Origin: Comamonadaceae bacterium
Lineage (GTDB): Bacteria; Pseudomonadota; Gammaproteobacteria; Burkholderiales; Burkholderiaceae_C
DNA: 11,092 bases
Assembly: GCA_027490485.1 (NCBI GenBank)
Contig: JAIXYA010000026.1
Location: 1-11,092, forward strand
Reading direction: 5' to 3'
Shown here: in pieces, positions 2,076-10,796 of the stretch
How the letters are laid out: the number at the start of each line of letters is the position of its first letter
How positions within the stretch are numbered: the first letter of the stretch is position 1
Made by a program: the position numbers and the translations under genes
Notes under the pieces: model-generated
Seen by the model: only the letters and a program-made list of their open reading frames with translations
Told to the model about the DNA's origin: nothing
The model's database searches: none

Positions 2076-2615
2076 TTACACCCATTCGCGCATTTCTTGA
2101 CTAGATAGTTTTCCTAATTTCTGCACTATCGGCCCACCTTGGGCATTTAAAACCAGTGTAAAAGGCAAACCACCTTCCGTGTTGCCCAGTGTTTTCAAGA
2201 GTTCGGTGCCGCCTAATCCTGCAAAACCGATGGGGTAGTTTACGGGGTTTTGTTTCAAAAAACGCTTGACGGCACTGGGTTGATCGATAGCCAATCCCAC
2301 AACTTGCCAGCTTTTAGATTGGTTTTCTTGAAAGAAGGCCTCCAATAAAGGCATTTCTTCAACACAGGGGGTACACCAAGTAGCCCAAAAATTCAGCACC
2401 AAGGGCTTGCCTTGAAATTGGGAGAGACGCAAAACTTCGCCATTGGGTTGGTCAAACTCAGCCGCCCATAAAGCTTGCGCAGCTTCAGGGGGCAAGGCCT
2501 TGGGCTTGAGTCTGGCCCAGTTAAAGGCCGCCCCAGCCACCAAGGCCATGGCAGCGGTACCCAAAAGCAGTCGGCGCGACGAACGCTTGGGTGTATCAGT
2601 CAGAGGATCATCCAT
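2076..2615 (-). CDS. TlpA-like membrane-anchored or exported thioredoxin-fold protein
   Basis: This 179-residue protein has a cytoplasmic head with SSRRLLLGT at 12-20, then a hydrophobic stretch AAMALVAGAA at 21-30. That is either a membrane anchor or a twin-arginine-type signal. A thioredoxin/TlpA fold follows: LVLNFWATWCTPC at 72-84 with redox cysteines C81 and C84, VVGLAIDQP at 105-113, and the cis-proline site GGLPFT at 148-153. Members of this family (TlpA, ResA, CcmG) usually act in the periplasm as thiol-disulfide reductants, for example in cytochrome maturation; the partner here cannot be told from the sequence. Its ATG overlaps the TGA of the upstream gene by 8 bases and has no Shine-Dalgarno, so it is probably translated by coupling. 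Confidence 0.9.
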   Translation of the reverse strand: MDDPLTDTPKRSSRRLLLGTAAMALVAGAAFNWARLKPKALPPEAAQALWAAEFDQPNGEVLRLSQFQGKPLVLNFWATWCTPCVEEMPLLEAFFQENQSKSWQVVGLAIDQPSAVKRFLKQNPVNYPIGFAGLGGTELLKTLGNTEGGLPFTLVLNAQGGPIVQKLGKLSSQEMREWV

Positions 2616-3204
2616 CCGAGGAGTTTACCAACCGCCGCACTGCATCGGTATCCCCCCGCCAAGGGCGGCCATGGCTGTCAGGCAACAAAGCACCACGCAA
2701 GTCGTCATAGCCGTAAATCATGAAATGCACACCTATTTCTTCATTAAGAACGTCACAATGGCTCCTCACACTCAAGGCGTCCACGGTTTCGCCTTTAAAG
2801 CCGCTCACCGCATGCACTTCGTAGCGCACACCTTTGTCAATCAGCAAAAGTTCAGCCGACTTGGCATCGTCGCAAAACAACTGAATGTAAATGTCGGACA
2901 AGCGGGTAGCGGTGCCTCGCCAAACCGCACCACTTAGGTGCGGACGAAACTCGGTTACACGCAGCATCCATTTCAAGGCCAATTCACGCAAAGCTGCCAC
3001 CTCTATGGGCTGTGTGTCTGCGCAAAAAATGGCTATGTATTCGCGAACGGCTTGTTCTGTGAGCTCGTTGTTTGGCAAGGCTGCTCGGGAATTCAAACCA
3101 AGCTCTTTCACAGCGCGACGTTTGGCAGGGCCGTATTCCAAACCCTCCTCTACGATGAGTCGGGCTGCTGTAGCAGCAATTTCTTCAGCTTCGATGGAAT
3201 TCAT
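2608..3204 (-). CDS. Conserved protein of unknown function
   Basis: I do not recognise a named family, although the protein reads like one that sits beside mpl in other Burkholderiales. With the ATG at 3204 it has 198 residues. A GTG at 3225 in the same frame would add seven residues, but the ATG leads straight into a helical segment (EEIAATAARLIVEEGLEYGPAKRRAVKELG) that looks like the natural N-terminus; neither start has a clear Shine-Dalgarno. Visible parts are this alpha-helical N-terminal third, a middle region with TATRLSDIYIQLFCDDAKSA and GVRYEVHAV, and a C-terminal IYGYDDLRGALLPDSHGRPWRG. There is no signal peptide or membrane segment, so it is probably cytoplasmic. It overlaps the TlpA-like gene by 8 bases and is divergent from mpl. 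Confidence 0.8.
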   Translation of the reverse strand: MNSIEAEEIAATAARLIVEEGLEYGPAKRRAVKELGLNSRAALPNNELTEQAVREYIAIFCADTQPIEVAALRELALKWMLRVTEFRPHLSGAVWRGTATRLSDIYIQLFCDDAKSAELLLIDKGVRYEVHAVSGFKGETVDALSVRSHCDVLNEEIGVHFMIYGYDDLRGALLPDSHGRPWRGDTDAVRRLVNSSDG

Positions 3205-3245
3205 GGTGGGCGCATTGTGCCGCACAGACTTTTACAATGAATGCC
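3205..3245. promoter_or_regulatory. Very short divergent intergenic region between the unknown gene and mpl
   Basis: Only about 40 bases separate the two divergent start codons, or 11 if the GTG at 3225 and the ATG at 3237 are used. A -10-like TACAAT lies on the plus strand at 3233-3238, seven bases before the mpl ATG at 3246, with no matching -35 at the right distance. No Shine-Dalgarno precedes either gene. Promoters must overlap each other or lie inside the opposite coding region. Confidence 0.3.
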
Positions 3246-4697: not shown

Positions 4698-5813
4698 TTA
4701 CTTCTTGCCGCGCCGCGCCTTCACGCCAGCAGACAGCGCCTCCAGCGCTTGCAAGGAATCGTCCCAGGCCAAACAAGCATCGGTGATGCTTTGGCCGTAA
4801 GCCAAGTTCTCGACTTTGTCCTTGCCGGGGGTGAATTTTTGCGCACCCGCCTTGAGGTGGCTTTCAATCATCACGCCAAACACACTGTGTGAGCCACCGG
4901 CCAATTGATTGGCGATGTCTTTGGCCACCACCAACTGGCGCTCATGCTGCTTGCTGCTGTTGGCATGGCTGCAATCCACCATCAGGCTGGCCGGCAATTT
5001 GGCAGATTCCAGTTCTTTGCAAGCAGCGGCCACGCTGGCAGCGTCATAGTTAGGCGCTTTGCCGCCGCGCAAAATCACGTGGCAATCGGGGTTGCCCTGG
5101 GTTTGCACAATCGCCACTTGGCCGTTTTTGTGCACCGACAAAAAATGGTGGCCACGGGCGGCGGCTTGGATGGCGTCGGTCGCAATCTTGATGTTGCCGT
5201 CTGTACCGTTTTTGAAGCCAATCGGCGCTGACAAGCCCGAGGCCAATTCGCGGTGGACCTGGCTTTCTGTGGTTCTGGCACCAATCGCGCCCCAGCTGAT
5301 AAGGTCGCCGATGTACTGGGGTGAAATCACGTCCAAAAACTCGCTGCCTGCAGGCACACCGGCGCGGTTGATCTCGATCAGCAACTGGCGGGCAATGCGC
5401 AAACCCTCGTCGATACGGAAGCTCTCGTCCAAGTAGGGGTCATTGATCAAACCTTTCCAGCCCACAGTGGTGCGGGGCTTTTCAAAATAGACGCGCATCA
5501 CGATTTCCAAGGTATCGGCGTATTTTTCACGCTCGACCTTCAAGCGCCGGGCATAGTCCAAAGCGGCGGCGGGGTCGTGGATGGAGCAGGGACCCATCAC
5601 CACCAGCAAGCGGTCGTCTTTGCCCACCATGATTTTGTGGATGCGTTGGCGGGTTTTGGCGATCAAGCTCTCGACCGCAGTGCCGGCAATGGGGAAGAAG
5701 CGGATCAAATGTTCAGGAGGCGGCAACACGGTGATGTCCTTGATGCGTTGATTGTCGGTTTGGCTGGTCTGGTCGTTGATCGGCGCATAAGCATCAGGCT
5801 TGGGGGTTTTCAT
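4698..5813 (-). CDS. aroG: 3-deoxy-7-phosphoheptulonate (DAHP) synthase, class I, probably Phe-sensitive type
   Basis: This 371-residue enzyme condenses phosphoenolpyruvate and erythrose 4-phosphate, committing carbon to the shikimate pathway for Phe, Tyr and Trp. The start is the ATG at 5813: AAGGAG lies at 5824-5819, five bases before it. The frame could extend to a TTG at 5837, but that has no such signal. Visible motifs: LLVVMGPCSIHDP with metal-ligand cysteine C76, MRVYFEKPRTTVGWKGLIND, GAIGARTTESQVHRELASGLS, GFKNGTDG, DCSHANSSK, VMIESHL and SITDACLAW. The RIKDITVLPPP N-terminus and HHFLSV (E. coli AroG CFLSV, AroF RFVGI) favour the Phe-inhibited AroG type; this is inference. An apparent attenuator with a Phe/Tyr-rich leader peptide lies upstream. 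Confidence 0.97.
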   Translation of the reverse strand: MKTPKPDAYAPINDQTSQTDNQRIKDITVLPPPEHLIRFFPIAGTAVESLIAKTRQRIHKIMVGKDDRLLVVMGPCSIHDPAAALDYARRLKVEREKYADTLEIVMRVYFEKPRTTVGWKGLINDPYLDESFRIDEGLRIARQLLIEINRAGVPAGSEFLDVISPQYIGDLISWGAIGARTTESQVHRELASGLSAPIGFKNGTDGNIKIATDAIQAAARGHHFLSVHKNGQVAIVQTQGNPDCHVILRGGKAPNYDAASVAAACKELESAKLPASLMVDCSHANSSKQHERQLVVAKDIANQLAGGSHSVFGVMIESHLKAGAQKFTPGKDKVENLAYGQSITDACLAWDDSLQALEALSAGVKARRGKK

Positions 5814-5857: not shown

Positions 5858-5886
5858 AAAAAAAAACCGCCGTTGTTTCGGCGGTT
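5858..5886 (-). terminator. Intrinsic terminator in the aroG leader (attenuator)
   Basis: Read on the minus strand, AACCGCCG (5886-5879), a six-base loop AAACAA (5878-5873) and CGGCGGTT (5872-5865) form a perfect 8-bp GC-rich hairpin. It runs straight into T bases at 5865-5858. It faces aroG and ends about 45 bases before the aroG ATG, so it would stop transcription before aroG unless overridden. It could also serve as the end of the tldD transcript. The alternative-pairing segment and the leader ORF upstream make an attenuator the better reading. Confidence 0.92.
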
Positions 5887-5915
5887 GGTTCGGGGTTTCA
5901 GTGCGCTGTTTGCGT

Positions 5916-5987
5916 TTAAACCTCTCGACCGCCGGTGAAGCGTGAGAAGAAGTAAGCAAAGTAAAAGTGCAAGGAAACCATGGGCAT
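5916..5987 (-). CDS. Aromatic-rich leader peptide of aroG
   Basis: A small ORF starts at ATG 5987 (23 residues) or at the in-frame ATG 5981 (21 residues) and ends with TAA at 5918-5916. Its core reads HFYFAYFFSRF, then TGGREV. Counted from the second ATG, residues 6-15 hold five Phe and two Tyr, far more than chance would give. It resembles in kind the pheA and pheST leader peptides of enterics, whose only role is to sense charged tRNA. It starts 38 bases after the tldD stop. No clear Shine-Dalgarno precedes either ATG, which is a weak point; translation might be coupled to tldD or use a weak site. Confidence 0.78.
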   Translation of the reverse strand: MPMVSLHFYFAYFFSRFTGGREV

Positions 5988-6019
5988 TAATGTATCACAG
6001 GCTTTTTCAGCGTTTGAGG

Positions 6020-6033
6020 CCGCTTTTAAGCGG
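6020..6033. repeat. Small inverted repeat over the tldD stop codon
   Basis: CCGCTTTTAAGCGG on the plus strand is a 14-base imperfect palindrome covering the tldD TAA. On the minus-strand transcript it can form a 5-bp CCGCT/AGCGG stem with a four-base loop. No run of T follows, so it is not an intrinsic terminator. Its role, if any, is unknown. Confidence 0.35.
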
Positions 6034-7486
6034 TGCCGCCCACCGTCAGGCCGTCAATGCGCAAAGTGGGTTGGCCCACGCCCACAGGCACGCTTTGGCC
6101 CTCTTTGCCGCAGGTGCCCACACCTGGGTCCAGCGCCATGTCGTTGCCGATCATGCTGACGCGGGTGAGCGCATCAGGGCCGTTACCGACCAAGGTGGCA
6201 CCCTTGACGGGGTATTGGATTTTTCCGTTTTCCACCCAATACGCCTGACTGGCCGAGAACACAAACTTACCCGAGGTGATGTCCACCTGCCCGCCGCCAA
6301 AGTTGGTGGCATACAAACCTTTTTTGATGCTGGCGACGATTTCTTCGGGGTGCTTTTCTCCCGCCAACATATAGGTGTTGGTCATGCGGGGCATGGGCAC
6401 ATGCGCATAGCTCTCACGACGACCGTTGCCGGTGGGTGGCACACCCATGAGACGGGCGTTCATGCTGTCTTGGATGTAGCCGACCAAAATGCCGTCTTCA
6501 ATCAGCACATTTTTCTGACTGGCGTGGCCTTCATCGTCCACATTGAGCGAGCCACGGCGATCAGCAATGGTGCCATCGTCCAGCACGGTGACGCCTTTGG
6601 CGGCGACACGCTTGCCAATTTTTCCGCTGAACGCACTTGAGCCCTTGCGGTTGAAGTCGCCCTCCAAGCCATGACCGATGGCTTCGTGCAACAAAATGCC
6701 TGGCCAACCCGAACCCAGCACCACCGTCATTTCACCCGCAGGCGCAGGACGCGCCTCAAGGTTGGTGAGCGCTGAACCCACCGCCTCATCGACATAACGG
6801 GTGAGGCATGCCGCATCAAAATGGGCCAAACCAAAGCGACCACCGCCGCCTGCGGAGCCACTTTCACGCCTTCCGTTTTGCTCCACGATGACCGACAACG
6901 ACAAGCGCACCAAGGGGCGAACATCTGCGGCCAAAGTGCCGTCAGCGCGGGCTACCATGACCACGTCGTACTCACTGGCCAAACCGGCCATGACTTGCAC
7001 CACACGCGGGTCTTTGGCCCGGGCTTGCTTTTCCAAGCGCTCAAGCAGCTGAACTTTGGCGGTGCTGTCCAAGCTGCCGATCGGGTCAAGCCCGTGGTAA
7101 AGCGATCTGCTGGGCGCGATGACTCTGGCAGGCACGTGTGTGCTGGCATTCAAACCCGCTGAGGCAATGCTGCGCACCGTGTGCGCCGCGTCCATCAATG
7201 AAGCCATGGAAATATCGTCTGAATAGGCGAAAGCGGTTTTTTCGCCACTGACTGCTCGCACGCCCACGCCTTGGTCGATGCTGAACGAACCGGTTTTAAC
7301 GATCCCTTCTTCCAAACTCCAGCCTTCGGAGCGGGTGTACTGGAAGTACAAGTCTGCGTCATCCACCTGATGGGCTCGGATGGCAGACAAAGCTTGGGTG
7401 AGATGGGATTCATCCAAACCGAAAGGGGTCAGGAGCAGGTTTTGCGCGATGGTCAATCGCTCGAGGGTGGGTTCGCGTGAAATCAT
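6026..7486 (-). CDS. tldD: Metalloprotease TldD
   Basis: TldD pairs with TldE/PmbA in a cytoplasmic zinc protease that trims unfolded peptides and, in E. coli, matures microcin B17 and degrades the CcdA antitoxin. With the ATG at 7486 the protein has 486 residues (E. coli 481); a TTG nine codons upstream at 7513 is less likely. Key motifs are DADLYFQ and EEGIVKTGSFSIDQGVGVRAVSGEKTAFAYSDD near the N-terminus, the zinc site HEAIGHGLEGD with H267, E268 and H272, and the C-terminal DPGVGTCGKEGQSVPVGVGQ. The partner PmbA is not in the window. It lies 54 bases after the rodA stop and 38 bases before the aroG leader ORF on the same strand, so rodA, tldD and aroG could share transcripts. Confidence 0.97.
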   Translation of the reverse strand: MISREPTLERLTIAQNLLLTPFGLDESHLTQALSAIRAHQVDDADLYFQYTRSEGWSLEEGIVKTGSFSIDQGVGVRAVSGEKTAFAYSDDISMASLMDAAHTVRSIASAGLNASTHVPARVIAPSRSLYHGLDPIGSLDSTAKVQLLERLEKQARAKDPRVVQVMAGLASEYDVVMVARADGTLAADVRPLVRLSLSVIVEQNGRRESGSAGGGGRFGLAHFDAACLTRYVDEAVGSALTNLEARPAPAGEMTVVLGSGWPGILLHEAIGHGLEGDFNRKGSSAFSGKIGKRVAAKGVTVLDDGTIADRRGSLNVDDEGHASQKNVLIEDGILVGYIQDSMNARLMGVPPTGNGRRESYAHVPMPRMTNTYMLAGEKHPEEIVASIKKGLYATNFGGGQVDITSGKFVFSASQAYWVENGKIQYPVKGATLVGNGPDALTRVSMIGNDMALDPGVGTCGKEGQSVPVGVGQPTLRIDGLTVGGTA

Positions 7487-7510
7487 GTGGCTATTGTAGG
7501 AGTCGGTCAA

Positions 7511-7532
7511 CAACCCTGTGCGCCACGGGTTG
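7511..7532. repeat. Hairpin in the rodA-tldD gap
   Basis: CAACCC at 7511-7516 pairs with GGGTTG at 7527-7532, and GTG 7518-7520 pairs with CAC 7524-7526 around a CGC loop, leaving one bulged T. This is a 9-bp stem within 54 non-coding bases between the rodA stop and the tldD ATG. On the minus strand no T run follows, so it is not a standard intrinsic terminator. It could pause polymerase or protect the rodA 3' end. Confidence 0.45.
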
Positions 7533-7540
7533 AGGCCAGG

Positions 7541-8695
7541 CTAAGACTGCACCAACTGCTTGGCTTTGGCGATGGAGAGCAAAATACCAATGCCAAAACC
7601 CAGTGTCACCATGGCCGTCCCCCCATAGCTGACAAAAGGCAAGGGCACCCCAACCACGGGTAAAAAACCACTGACCATGCCCATATTGACAAAGGCATAG
7701 GTGAAGAAAATGAGGGTGATGCTGCCCGCCAACAAACGGGCAAACAAGGTAGGGCCTTCAAGGGCAATCGCCAAGCCCCTGAAAACCAACACCAAAAAGC
7801 CGCCGATTAAAAAGATATTGCCCAACAAACCAAATTCTTCAGAATAGGCCGCAAACACAAAGTCGGTGGTGCTCTCAGGTATGAAATCGAGTTGGGATTG
7901 GGTGCCCTGCATAAAGCCTTTGCCCCAAAAACCGCCAGAGCCAATAGCAATCATGCCTTGTATGGTGTGAAATCCCTTACCTAGAGGGTCTCGCCCTGGA
8001 TCCAACAAAGTACATACCCGCTGCTGTTGGTAATCCCTCAAAAAGGGCCAGTCGACACCTTTGACACACAAGCTGGGCTCAAAAATCACCAGCAAGGCCA
8101 TGCCGACAATACCCAAAACCAAGGGCGGAATAATCAGCCACCAACTCAGGCCAGCGAGAAAAATCACATACAAGCCGGCAGCCATCACCAAAATCGCTGT
8201 ACCTAAATCAGGTTGTTTGACGATCAGCGCCACAGGAATGAGCAATATCAAGCCACCTACAAAAAAATCCAAGGTACGTAATTGGCCCTCGCGTTTTTGA
8301 AACCACCAAGCGAGCATCAGCGGCATGCCAATTTTCATGATTTCACTGGGCTGAATCACGATACCCACATTCACCCAGCGCTGAGCGCCTTTGCGGGTTA
8401 AACCAAACAAGGCCACCGCAACCAACAAAGCCAAACCCACGGTGTAAATGGGAACAGCCAAAGACATCATGCGTTGCGGTGGGATTTGTGCCACCACAAA
8501 CATGATGGCGCAGGCAATCAGCATATTGCGGCCGTGGTCTAAAAACCGCTGTCCTTCGCCATAACCTGAAGAATAAATGGTCAGTAACCCGACGATCGAC
8601 AACAGCAGTATCGCGAAGCCTAAAACAGTGTCAAAGCCTTTGACCAGCGGCGTGATGCGCTGAAAAACACTGTATTTACCGATTTGGGTTCCCAT
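7541..8695 (-). CDS. rodA: Rod-shape peptidoglycan glycosyltransferase RodA (SEDS family)
   Basis: RodA (MrdB) polymerises lipid II into glycan strands in the inner membrane as part of the elongasome, with class B PBP2. This 384-residue protein (E. coli 370) is hydrophobic throughout, consistent with about ten membrane helices. It carries SEDS signatures in order: KGAQRWVNVG, QPSEIMKIGMPL, KQPDLGTAI, DYQQQRVCTLLDPGRDPLGKG, IAIGSGGFWGKGFMQGTQSQLDFIPESTTDFVFA, which includes the aspartate matching E. coli D262, and NMGMVSGFLPVVGVPLPFVSYGG. The C-terminal motifs favour RodA over FtsW. It is the first gene of its minus-strand block, divergent from the RNB gene. mrdA (PBP2), its usual partner, is not next to it here. 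Confidence 0.97.
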   Translation of the reverse strand: MGTQIGKYSVFQRITPLVKGFDTVLGFAILLLSIVGLLTIYSSGYGEGQRFLDHGRNMLIACAIMFVVAQIPPQRMMSLAVPIYTVGLALLVAVALFGLTRKGAQRWVNVGIVIQPSEIMKIGMPLMLAWWFQKREGQLRTLDFFVGGLILLIPVALIVKQPDLGTAILVMAAGLYVIFLAGLSWWLIIPPLVLGIVGMALLVIFEPSLCVKGVDWPFLRDYQQQRVCTLLDPGRDPLGKGFHTIQGMIAIGSGGFWGKGFMQGTQSQLDFIPESTTDFVFAAYSEEFGLLGNIFLIGGFLVLVFRGLAIALEGPTLFARLLAGSITLIFFTYAFVNMGMVSGFLPVVGVPLPFVSYGGTAMVTLGFGIGILLSIAKAKQLVQS

Positions 8696-8735
8696 GCCTG
8701 AAGTTTATCGGAGCGCCATGGGAGAATCCGCACCC
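8696..8735. promoter_or_regulatory. Divergent start region between rodA and the RNB gene
   Basis: About 40 bases lie between the rodA ATG (minus) and the preferred RNB-gene ATG (plus). A GGGAGA element at 8720-8725 could be the ribosome site for the RNB gene, with a rather long ten-base spacer. No convincing -35/-10 pair is seen in so small a space, so promoters probably extend into the coding regions. Confidence 0.25.
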
Positions 8736-10796
8736 ATGTATGCAATTTATGAAGAAGGCGGAAAATTCAATACGGGCCGGGTTTTGTCCGAGACCGATGC
8801 GTCTGCTCAACTCGAACTCGACAGTGGCAAACGTGTCAAGGTCAAGTCCACCCAATTGCTGATGCGGTTTGATAAGCCTCAACCAACGGAATTCATGCTT
8901 GCGGGAAAAGCTGTCGCCTCGGGCATGGAAGTGGACATGGCTTGGGAGTTCGCACCCGAAGAAGAATTTGGGTTTGCCGACTTGGCACGTGACTATTTCT
9001 CGAAAGACGCCAGCCCCAGCGAGCAATTGGGCACCTTGCTTTGCCTGTTTGATGCCCCTCACTATTTCCGTCGAGCCGGCAAGGGTCGCTTTCGCAAAGC
9101 GTCGGCTGAGATCGTGCAACAAGCCCTGATCGCTATTGAAAAGAAAAAGCAGCTTCAACAGCAAATTTCAGATTGGGCACAAGAACTCATGCTTGGCCGA
9201 TGTCCGCCTCAAGTGCAGACACAACTTTTCAAGATTCTCTTCAAGCCCGATAAAAACGCCCCCGAGTACAAAGCTGTGGTCGAGGCTGCTAAACAAAGCC
9301 AAACCGCACCATTGGTGTTGCTGCAAAAAGCAGGCGCCATCCGCTCCGCTTACGACTTTCACTGGCAGCGTTTTTTGTTTGAGCATTTCCCCAAGGGAAC
9401 GGCTTTCCCTCCGCTGCAAGCGCCAGCCATCACCACTGACTTGCCTTTGGCCAATGTCAAAGCCTATTCCATCGATGACTCGCAAACCACCGAAATTGAT
9501 GACGCTTTGTCGGTTCAAGGCTTGGGCAGCGACTGCATCACTGTGGGCATCCACATTGCCGCACCGGCTTTGGCGATCAAGCCGGGGGACGCCATCGATC
9601 TGTGTGGGCGTGCCCGTTTATCAACGGTGTATATGCCTGGTCACAAAATCACCATGCTGCCTGACAGCGTGGTGCAGGCCTACACCTTGCAAGAAGGCCG
9701 CAACTGTCCGGCCTTGTCTTTGTATGTCAGCTTTGATGCGCAAACCTTGTCCGTTCTCCATACCGAAACTCACCTCGAGTTGGTGCCTATTCAAACCAAT
9801 ATGCGCCACGATCAACTGGACACGGTGGTTACCGAAAGCTGGTTGAGCAAAGAGGCCAGCGGTGTGGAAACCGCACCGGTTGTCGCCATGCCCCATGCCG
9901 AATTGGCCTTCTTGTTTCGTCTGGCAAAACATTTGAAAGCAGCGCGGGAAGTTGTTCGTGGCAAACCTGAAACCTTCAACCGCCCCGATTACAACTTCCG
10001 CTTGGCAGAAGTGGCCGATACCGGCCCGAATGGGCATGAAAGCGTAGGCATCAGCATTCGCACACGCGGGTCGCCGCTGGACCTGATCGTGGCTGAAGCC
10101 ATGATTTTGGCCAACAGCACCTGGGGACAATGGTTAGCCAGCTTGGGCGTGCCTGCCATTTACCGCAGCCAAGCCTCTTTAGCCCCTGGTATCAAAGTTC
10201 GCATGGGCACCAAGGCCCTGCCCCATGCTGGCATTGGCGTCCCCAGCTACGCTTGGAGTACCTCGCCCTTGCGTCGCTATACAGATCTGGTCAACCAGTG
10301 GCAATTGATTGCAAGCGTGCGCCATGGCGCAACCGCTGCACTGGCAGCACCTTTCAAACCTAAGGATGCAGAACTCTTTGGCATCATCACTGCTTTTGAA
10401 TCAGCCTACAGCGCCTACAACACCCACCAAGCCAGCATGGAGCGGTTTTGGACTTTGCAGTACTTGCGCCAAAACTCGCTTGCCGAATTGGACGCTACCG
10501 TGATCAAATCCTTTCCCGGTGAACCAGCACTCGCACGTGCTGACCATTTACCGCTGGTTTTTGCGGTCATGGGTTCTCCAGCGCTTGAAAGAGGCAGTCG
10601 GGTGCGGGTTCGTTTAGGTGATATGGATTTGATTGCCTTGGATATCCATGCACAATTCATAGAATCCTTGCAGCAAACGCAAGAGCCCATCAACACCGAA
10701 GAAGATGAAGAGTTGGCAGCCGGTCCCCTTGCCATTGCAGTTGACTTGAATGATGCTGAACTTGTACCCACTGCGCCTACGGACGCACCCAGCTGA
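8736..10796 (+). CDS. RNB-domain exoribonuclease (RNase II/R superfamily)
   Basis: This 686-residue protein is a likely cytoplasmic 3'-to-5' exoribonuclease. I prefer the ATG at 8736 (MYAIYEEGGKF), which begins the conserved part and follows GGGAGA; ATGs at 8694 and 8718 are in frame, but the first overlaps the rodA start. The N-terminal ~60 residues with GKRVKVKSTQLLMRF look like a small beta-rich RNA-binding region. The RNB catalytic domain has SIDDSQTTEIDDAL at 245-258 (metal aspartates D247, D255, D256; Glu253 where E. coli RNase II has D207), VYMPGHKITMLPD, and SPLRRYTDLVNQW from S510. The end (VRVRLGDMDLIALDIHA) resembles a short S1-like OB fold. It is longer than RNase II and shorter than RNase R, so I give no rnb or rnr symbol. 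Confidence 0.93.
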   Translation: MYAIYEEGGKFNTGRVLSETDASAQLELDSGKRVKVKSTQLLMRFDKPQPTEFMLAGKAVASGMEVDMAWEFAPEEEFGFADLARDYFSKDASPSEQLGTLLCLFDAPHYFRRAGKGRFRKASAEIVQQALIAIEKKKQLQQQISDWAQELMLGRCPPQVQTQLFKILFKPDKNAPEYKAVVEAAKQSQTAPLVLLQKAGAIRSAYDFHWQRFLFEHFPKGTAFPPLQAPAITTDLPLANVKAYSIDDSQTTEIDDALSVQGLGSDCITVGIHIAAPALAIKPGDAIDLCGRARLSTVYMPGHKITMLPDSVVQAYTLQEGRNCPALSLYVSFDAQTLSVLHTETHLELVPIQTNMRHDQLDTVVTESWLSKEASGVETAPVVAMPHAELAFLFRLAKHLKAAREVVRGKPETFNRPDYNFRLAEVADTGPNGHESVGISIRTRGSPLDLIVAEAMILANSTWGQWLASLGVPAIYRSQASLAPGIKVRMGTKALPHAGIGVPSYAWSTSPLRRYTDLVNQWQLIASVRHGATAALAAPFKPKDAELFGIITAFESAYSAYNTHQASMERFWTLQYLRQNSLAELDATVIKSFPGEPALARADHLPLVFAVMGSPALERGSRVRVRLGDMDLIALDIHAQFIESLQQTQEPINTEEDEELAAGPLAIAVDLNDAELVPTAPTDAPS

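Follow-up and report, generated by a model that had tools for sequence, protein, structure and literature searches.

The pheL-pheA locus of enterobacteria combines a Phe-rich leader peptide, competing hairpins and a terminator placed before the gene. RNA-level control has also been proposed directly in front of genes for DAHP synthase. In the aroR-aroF locus of the actinobacterium Corynebacterium glutamicum, a leader peptide that includes Phe-Tyr-Phe is encoded before the DAHP synthase gene aroF, and Phe limitation is reported to cause read-through, Tyr having no effect (PMC11802643, PMC4046766). Attenuation was likewise proposed, by comparison, for uORFC-13-1, which is described in front of aroF from 24 representatives, in Acholeplasma and in unassigned environmental sequences, as a candidate uORF with a ribosome-binding site, at least one Phe codon and a terminator (PMC8632094); the same source refers to Camakaris 1980 for a hypothesis that E. 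coli aroF is attenuated. An attenuator is predicted before the Vibrio aroF-tyrA genes (PMC1173090, Table 7), and RNA motifs are described before the Shewanella aroF and aroH genes (PMC2659441). A further proteobacterial attenuator, trpL-trpE(G) of Sinorhizobium meliloti, is reported to have a transcript that starts at the leader ATG (PMC7298713), and leaderless leader ORFs are reported both in this organism (PMC7298713) and in Streptomyces (PMC8079986). As for the protein regulators, TrpR and TyrR are described as conserved in gammaproteobacteria and absent from other classes (PMC5343134).

Here we analyze the gap between tldD and aroG in an 11,092-nucleotide stretch of DNA from a Comamonadaceae bacterium (assembly GCA_027490485.1, contig JAIXYA010000026.1; this whole stretch is hereafter the window), which very probably contains a ribosome-mediated transcription attenuator controlling aroG. 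Compared by description, it is like the C. glutamicum aroR leader in target and peptide, although the run in the window is longer (FYFAYFF) and most of its relatives include Trp. With uORFC-13-1, as presented in PMC8632094, it has in common a candidate uORF with Phe codons, a terminator and a DAHP synthase gene downstream, whereas the Burkholderiales leader has a long mixed aromatic run and no Shine-Dalgarno (SD) sequence. It differs from pheL-pheA in its target gene, here aroG, and again in having no SD. The S. meliloti trpL leader, as reported, senses Trp and serves a different gene, and leaderlessness at aroG is a prediction only. The Vibrio and Shewanella cases, also compared by description, resemble the present one in that RNA control is proposed before DAHP synthase genes, in other lineages. 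The mechanism class, the leaderless start and attenuation of DAHP synthase are each already known or proposed elsewhere; the novelty here lies in the lineage, in how widely the leader is conserved and in the three-amino-acid run. We found no description of a betaproteobacterial aroG attenuator in the open-access literature, and an earlier prediction elsewhere is possible; the aroG leader may overlap with the motif Burkholderiales-1, which is listed without an Rfam number (PMC2864571). No Rfam family reached its gathering score in the window or in 20 related loci, and the match of the window to Phe_leader (RF01859) amounts to 23.5 bits (E = 0.07), below the gathering score of 55.

Anatomy of the tldD-aroG gap

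The window belongs to a 1.64-Mb assembly that is 74% complete and in which one aroG was found. An earlier reading of the window (the preliminary description) had named it as a DAHP synthase gene. Its product is a class I DAHP synthase of the AroFGH family (TIGR00034, 534 bits against a cut-off of 173) and scores 542 bits with NF006723 (AroG), just below the cut-off of 568. The same description had placed in this gap the three parts of an attenuator, namely an aromatic-rich leader ORF, an alternative-pairing arm and a strong terminator just before the gene, and we find all of them at that place, in the right order and on the right strand (Table 1). The leader has 23 codons, of which five specify Phe and two Tyr. 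Arm 2 is complementary over 7 nt to arm 3, which lies in the 5' arm of the terminator; the terminator itself comprises 8 bp, six of them G-C, followed by U. A 500-nt scan of the window recovered two terminator-like sites against 0.7 expected from shuffles. The folding energy of the window leader is unexceptional (z = -1.23), a value that is uninformative when taken from a single sequence. Elsewhere in the window, positions 2608-3225 encode a 205-aa protein with no Pfam or NCBIfam match at E 0.001, and positions 8694-10796 a 700-aa RNB-domain protein that scores far under the RNase II and RNase R cut-offs.

Table 1. Positions in the window of the aroG leader, its parts and the flanking genes
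Feature	Position	Strand	Remarks
tldD	6026-7513	minus	gene directly upstream of the gap, same strand as aroG
Extended -10 element TGTGATACATT	5989-5999	minus	direct reading; predicted
Leader peptide ORF MPMVSLHFYFAYFFSRFTGGREV	5987-5916	minus	ATG 5987, in-frame ATG 5981 (the likelier start, giving MVSLHFYFAYFFSRFTGGREV), stop TAA 5918-5916
Hairpin 1:2 (CUUCUC-A-CGCU / GGCG-GUC-GAGAGG)	5921-5949	minus	minimum-energy fold; can sequester arm 2
Arm 2, CGGCGGU	5928-5934	minus	5' half of antiterminator, inside leader ORF
Arm 3, ACCGCCG	5879-5885	minus	pairs with arm 2 in the antiterminator and with arm 4 in the terminator
Arm 4	5866-5872	minus	3' arm of terminator, pairs with arm 3
Intrinsic terminator hairpin 3:4, AACCGCCG-AAACAA-CGGCGGUU	5865-5886	minus	terminator scan
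Terminator U-tract	5858-5866	minus	9 U, first two able to pair; direct reading and terminator scan
aroG, DAHP synthase	4698-5813	minus	probable start ATG 5813 with AAGGAG upstream; automatic ORF call starts at TTG 5837

Conservation of the leader ORF

An aroG match is present in 119 of 120 genomes of the window's family. Defining a leader as a short ORF with at least five F, Y or W within ten residues, we examined the regions upstream of aroG in a named-genome sample (the best 80 of at least 592 aroG loci) and in a family sample (one aroG copy from each of 69 genomes, the best-scoring apart from that of the window). In the latter, 68 of the 69 upstream regions reach five aromatic residues and the remaining one, L138, reaches four. 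Across a set of 144 aroG loci, in which the window is counted and from which five loci with identical leaders and the truncated L007 were removed, an aromatic-rich leader ORF is found in 126. The 18 loci without a leader by this threshold include three from Polynucleobacter, two from Cupriavidus (L036 and L037), several distant records, L022 and L138; the last two look leader-like by eye yet fall below five in ten, and L073 met the threshold but was excluded by hand.

As a control we used the regions upstream of second aroG copies (the first 20 listed, the copies being 56-63% identical), none of which has an aromatic-rich leader, the maximum being three aromatic residues. The chance level is similarly low: five aromatics are reached on the opposite strand in two of the 80 named loci and in a single one of 690 sequences obtained by mononucleotide shuffling from the family regions, with none going higher. 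On such comparative grounds, a chance origin of the attenuator anatomy appears very unlikely. Within the aromatic columns of 49 aligned peptides (of the 126), the first, second and third codon positions have diversities of 0.044, 0.196 and 0.297, respectively. This pattern, highest at the third position, is what one expects from translation of a run that tolerates swaps between F and Y. The aromatic residues, whose codons the preliminary description had suggested checking for conservation, are retained, the third codon positions varying most. Three aroG genes from records titled Planctomycetota, Verrucomicrobiia and Gemmataceae (L045, L047 and L049) are 65-69% identical to that of the window, which may reflect transfer or misbinning; no leader ORF was found at these loci with the five-in-ten threshold.

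Linkage to aroG and phyletic range

In the window tldD is the next gene upstream, on the same strand, and it was found upstream of aroG in 73 of 108 loci, which raises the possibility that the hairpin is a mere terminator of tldD transcription and the aromatic ORF a chance ORF in the gap. Against this, 22 of 88 leader-bearing loci have no tldD within about 1.5 kb upstream, whereas L029-L031, L064 and L073 have tldD and no leader (the duplicates L056, L084 and L107 being left out of this group). Moreover, the ORF, arm 2 and the -10 box are all conserved. A covariance model built from 79 leaders, the window's included, gave matches at E <=0.01 in 62 of 200 genomes from the order, 48 of these at <=1e-5, and in all of the 30 best matches, which were those examined, aroG lies directly downstream. 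Because every one of these 30 precedes aroG and a quarter of the leader-bearing loci do without tldD, the element belongs to aroG and not to tldD, and we regard its reading as a tldD terminator as extremely improbable.

Class-wide, 20 of 276 genomes match the model at E <=0.01. All 17 new loci outside the order were examined: four (L203-L206) have aroG directly downstream, and no aroG is seen at the other 13; the presence of an aroG-linked leader in these four hints at an older origin or at transfer. All four display aromatic-rich runs, FYFWYYF being one example, together with a -10-like box close to the start. The window genome yielded one strong match and no second, along with two weak ones (E 0.22 and 0.98). 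We also observed an aroG-like sequence occurring twice in tandem in L195 (1598-3147) and L197 (1-1474), the second copy running past the end of the sequence retrieved.

Alternative pairing and the terminator

Since alignment A1 shifts arm 2 by one column between clades, we counted arms 2 and 3 with an anchored script, which covered 109 leaders, 13 of 122 being lost to failures of the arm finder. The five core pairs between the arms each form in 107-109 of the 109, and all five together in 106, as against 430 of 2180 trials with a letter-shuffled arm 3. At the three variable arm positions 300 of 327 cells are paired, compared with a mean of 272.2 (sd 3.0, highest 282, 300 trials) when arm 3 is swapped between leaders and arm 2 is reselected for the best match; arm 2 was chosen for best complementarity, which biases the pairing counts upward, and the re-searched null takes this choice into account, while all the nulls ignore kinship. 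Arm 2 lies in reading frame 0 in 68 leaders, in frame 2 in 40 and in frame 1 in one, and its motif encodes GG in one set of leaders and LA, PA or KA elsewhere. Because it falls in different frames, it is the RNA of arm 2 rather than its peptide that is conserved.

The preliminary description had suggested compensatory change in the hairpins as a check. On an aroG tree of 75 leaders there are few compensated changes between the arms: a shift to T-A-T took place once at arm position 6 and persists in 12 members of a 20-leader clade; the same position turned to A-T-A once, seen in two leaders, and position 4 shows a single change to A-T-G. Most other arm changes break or weaken a pairing, with parsimony giving 13 changes in total at position 6 and 19 at position 7. 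The broader proposal of an attenuator is supported: both the leader ORF and the alternative pairing recur across relatives, close as well as distant.

In the 79 aligned leaders, 93.7% of cells in the terminator and first stem are paired, against 42-55% with slid partners, the structure having been derived from the same 79 sequences; for the terminator helix alone the value is 97.5%. An over-threshold terminator is present in 127 of 131 leaders and absent from four. In hairpin 1:2, the UUCUC/GAGAG stem has 87.8% of its cells paired (79 leaders), with changes on both sides in three of its five pairs. Its register is less certain than that of the other helices because neighbouring U-rich columns also pair with GAGAG, about equally often when taken one by one.

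Folding of the predicted switch

In the whole leader at equilibrium arm 4 outcompetes arm 2, and we therefore limited folding to the RNA up to arm 3. With the RNA ending after arm 3 and the edge of the ribosome 2-14 nt before arm 2, pairing 2:3 is the predicted fold in all 109 leaders; with the edge farther away it is still found in 102 (20 nt) and 99 (26 nt). A control in which the last 12 letters, including arm 3, were shuffled (edge at 8 nt) retained 2:3 in 59 of 109. Without a ribosome, RNA up to arm 3 gives a mixed outcome, 2:3 in 58 and 1:2-like pairing in 51 of the 109. When the ribosome is placed beyond the stop codon, the terminator folds in 109 of 109. Terminator and antiterminator, in short, each come out as the predicted structure under the condition that corresponds to them. 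With the terminator, the complete leader folds at -38.6 kcal/mol, far below the -25.3 kcal/mol obtained with 2:3 enforced, and once arm 4 is included downstream of the stall, 2:3 wins in just 12 of 109 leaders. Antitermination must consequently be kinetic, as it is in known attenuators.

Start of the leader

Within 30 nt upstream of the leader start, 92 of 126 leaders carry the extended -10 pattern TGNTANWKT, as against 35 of 6300 shuffled 30-mers. The resulting consensus, GTGCTACATT (92/126), is partly forced by this search pattern; not forced are a G preceding TG (0.93 at two places upstream of TA), a C following it (0.86) and the C in TACATT (0.78). No enrichment of a -35 box over shuffles was detected in the leader upstream regions, and a consensus promoter scan of the window found no promoter. 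In 89 of the 92 box-bearing leaders, 6-9 nt separate the -10 box from the ATG; in the window the distance is 7 nt to the ATG at 5981, scored as 1 in our count, which used the ATG at 5987. SD-like 4-mers precede the leader start in one of 126 cases, and a lenient test recovers such a 4-mer by some ATG or GTG near the aroG start in 115 of 126. Because the -10 box sits 6-9 nt before the ATG and an SD is nearly absent, the leader ORF is predicted to be leaderless, probably with transcription starting at or near the second ATG of the window, 5981, which the 7-nt gap favours.

As a variant of the attenuator rather than a competing account, the same switch might have a normal 5' UTR, with a start, for example, at 5987. 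The two in-frame ATGs of the window leave room for such an arrangement, and at the Burkholderia-type loci a TATAAA-like box is visible by eye some 30 nt upstream of the ATG, which would imply a short 5' UTR, so that these particular loci may not be leaderless. The spacing of the -10 box and the rarity of SD-like 4-mers both argue against this variant, which we consider possible but rather unlikely.

Proposed mechanism

In the attenuator that we favour, transcription would begin at or very near the leader ATG, as the spacing of the -10 box suggests, and a ribosome would load on the SD-less, probably leaderless AUG to make a peptide with the run FYFAYFF. Where charged Phe- or Tyr-tRNA is scarce, this ribosome would stall within the run, covering arm 1 and leaving arm 2 free. 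Arm 2 would then pair with arm 3 as soon as the latter is made, before arm 4 exists, so that no terminator would form and aroG would be read. With translation continuing to the stop codon, arm 2 would be covered by the ribosome or the 1:2 hairpin would reform; arm 3 would pair with arm 4 and transcription would end before aroG. The start site, translation, stalling, read-through and the identity of the amino acids that count are the elements of this scheme that we infer.

A different sensor could in principle be coupled to the same element, responding to a peptide-specific arrest, with nascent peptide plus ligand as in TnaC, or to general translation, instead of to charged aromatic tRNAs. The frequency among relatives of a motif like FYFxYFWFS would be in keeping with such an arrest peptide. 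A fixed arrest peptide, however, would be expected to keep exact residues, whereas here F and Y replace one another at given positions, the residues that follow the run vary by clade and the frames of arm 2 differ; the composition of the leader also fits the pathway. We accordingly judge a sensor of this kind to be very improbable, and return to the sensing of charged aromatic tRNAs.

Amino acids in the run and the search for TrpR and TyrR

All 126 leader peptides contain F, 123 contain Y and 106 contain W. The preliminary description had matched the leader to the pathway through Phe and Tyr; this stands for the window itself, while in most relatives Trp has to be added. The position occupied by Trp in the common form of the peptide is Phe in the window and in L105 (MSSARFYFAYFFISRPHGGREI), the single relative of the same genus that was compared. 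Judged from these peptides, the leader of the family may be a three-amino-acid sensor for Phe, Tyr and Trp, and the copy in the window looks like a sensor of Phe and Tyr only; we infer an active role for the Trp codon in the leaders that have one. If the Phe/Tyr/Trp design is true, it would constitute a compact multi-input sensor within one peptide, and the two same-genus leaders without Trp would represent a natural experiment in retuning.

We searched 60 genomes of the family for the repressors of the enterobacterial system, and recovered TrpR (TIGR01321) in none, with the E. coli control positive, and TyrR (NF008085) above its cut-off in none. The preliminary description had presented attenuation of a DAHP synthase gene as a different way of control from that by TyrR and TrpR. 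The absence of TrpR and of above-cut-off TyrR from these 60 genomes agrees with this, but such attenuation is not unprecedented, given the C. glutamicum and Acholeplasma cases. The leader offers a candidate explanation of the way in which flow into aromatic amino-acid synthesis is set in bacteria that lack TrpR and, for the most part, any TyrR-like protein. The proposed sensor of tRNA charging would act on the first committed enzyme; the element is conserved across much of a large order and lies below the Rfam cut-offs in the loci examined. A more far-reaching proposition, for and against which we see the balance as even, is that in many Burkholderiales entry into the shikimate pathway is set by one conserved leaderless attenuator that polls Phe, Tyr and Trp tRNAs in a single peptide, replacing the enterobacterial control by TrpR and TyrR, and that the genus of the window has retuned it by loss of the Trp codon. 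With regard to TyrR, two genomes (G052 and G058) have nearly full-length matches below the threshold, at 464 and 448 bits versus a cut-off of 576, and the many partial matches to the TyrR model probably represent other sigma-54 activators.
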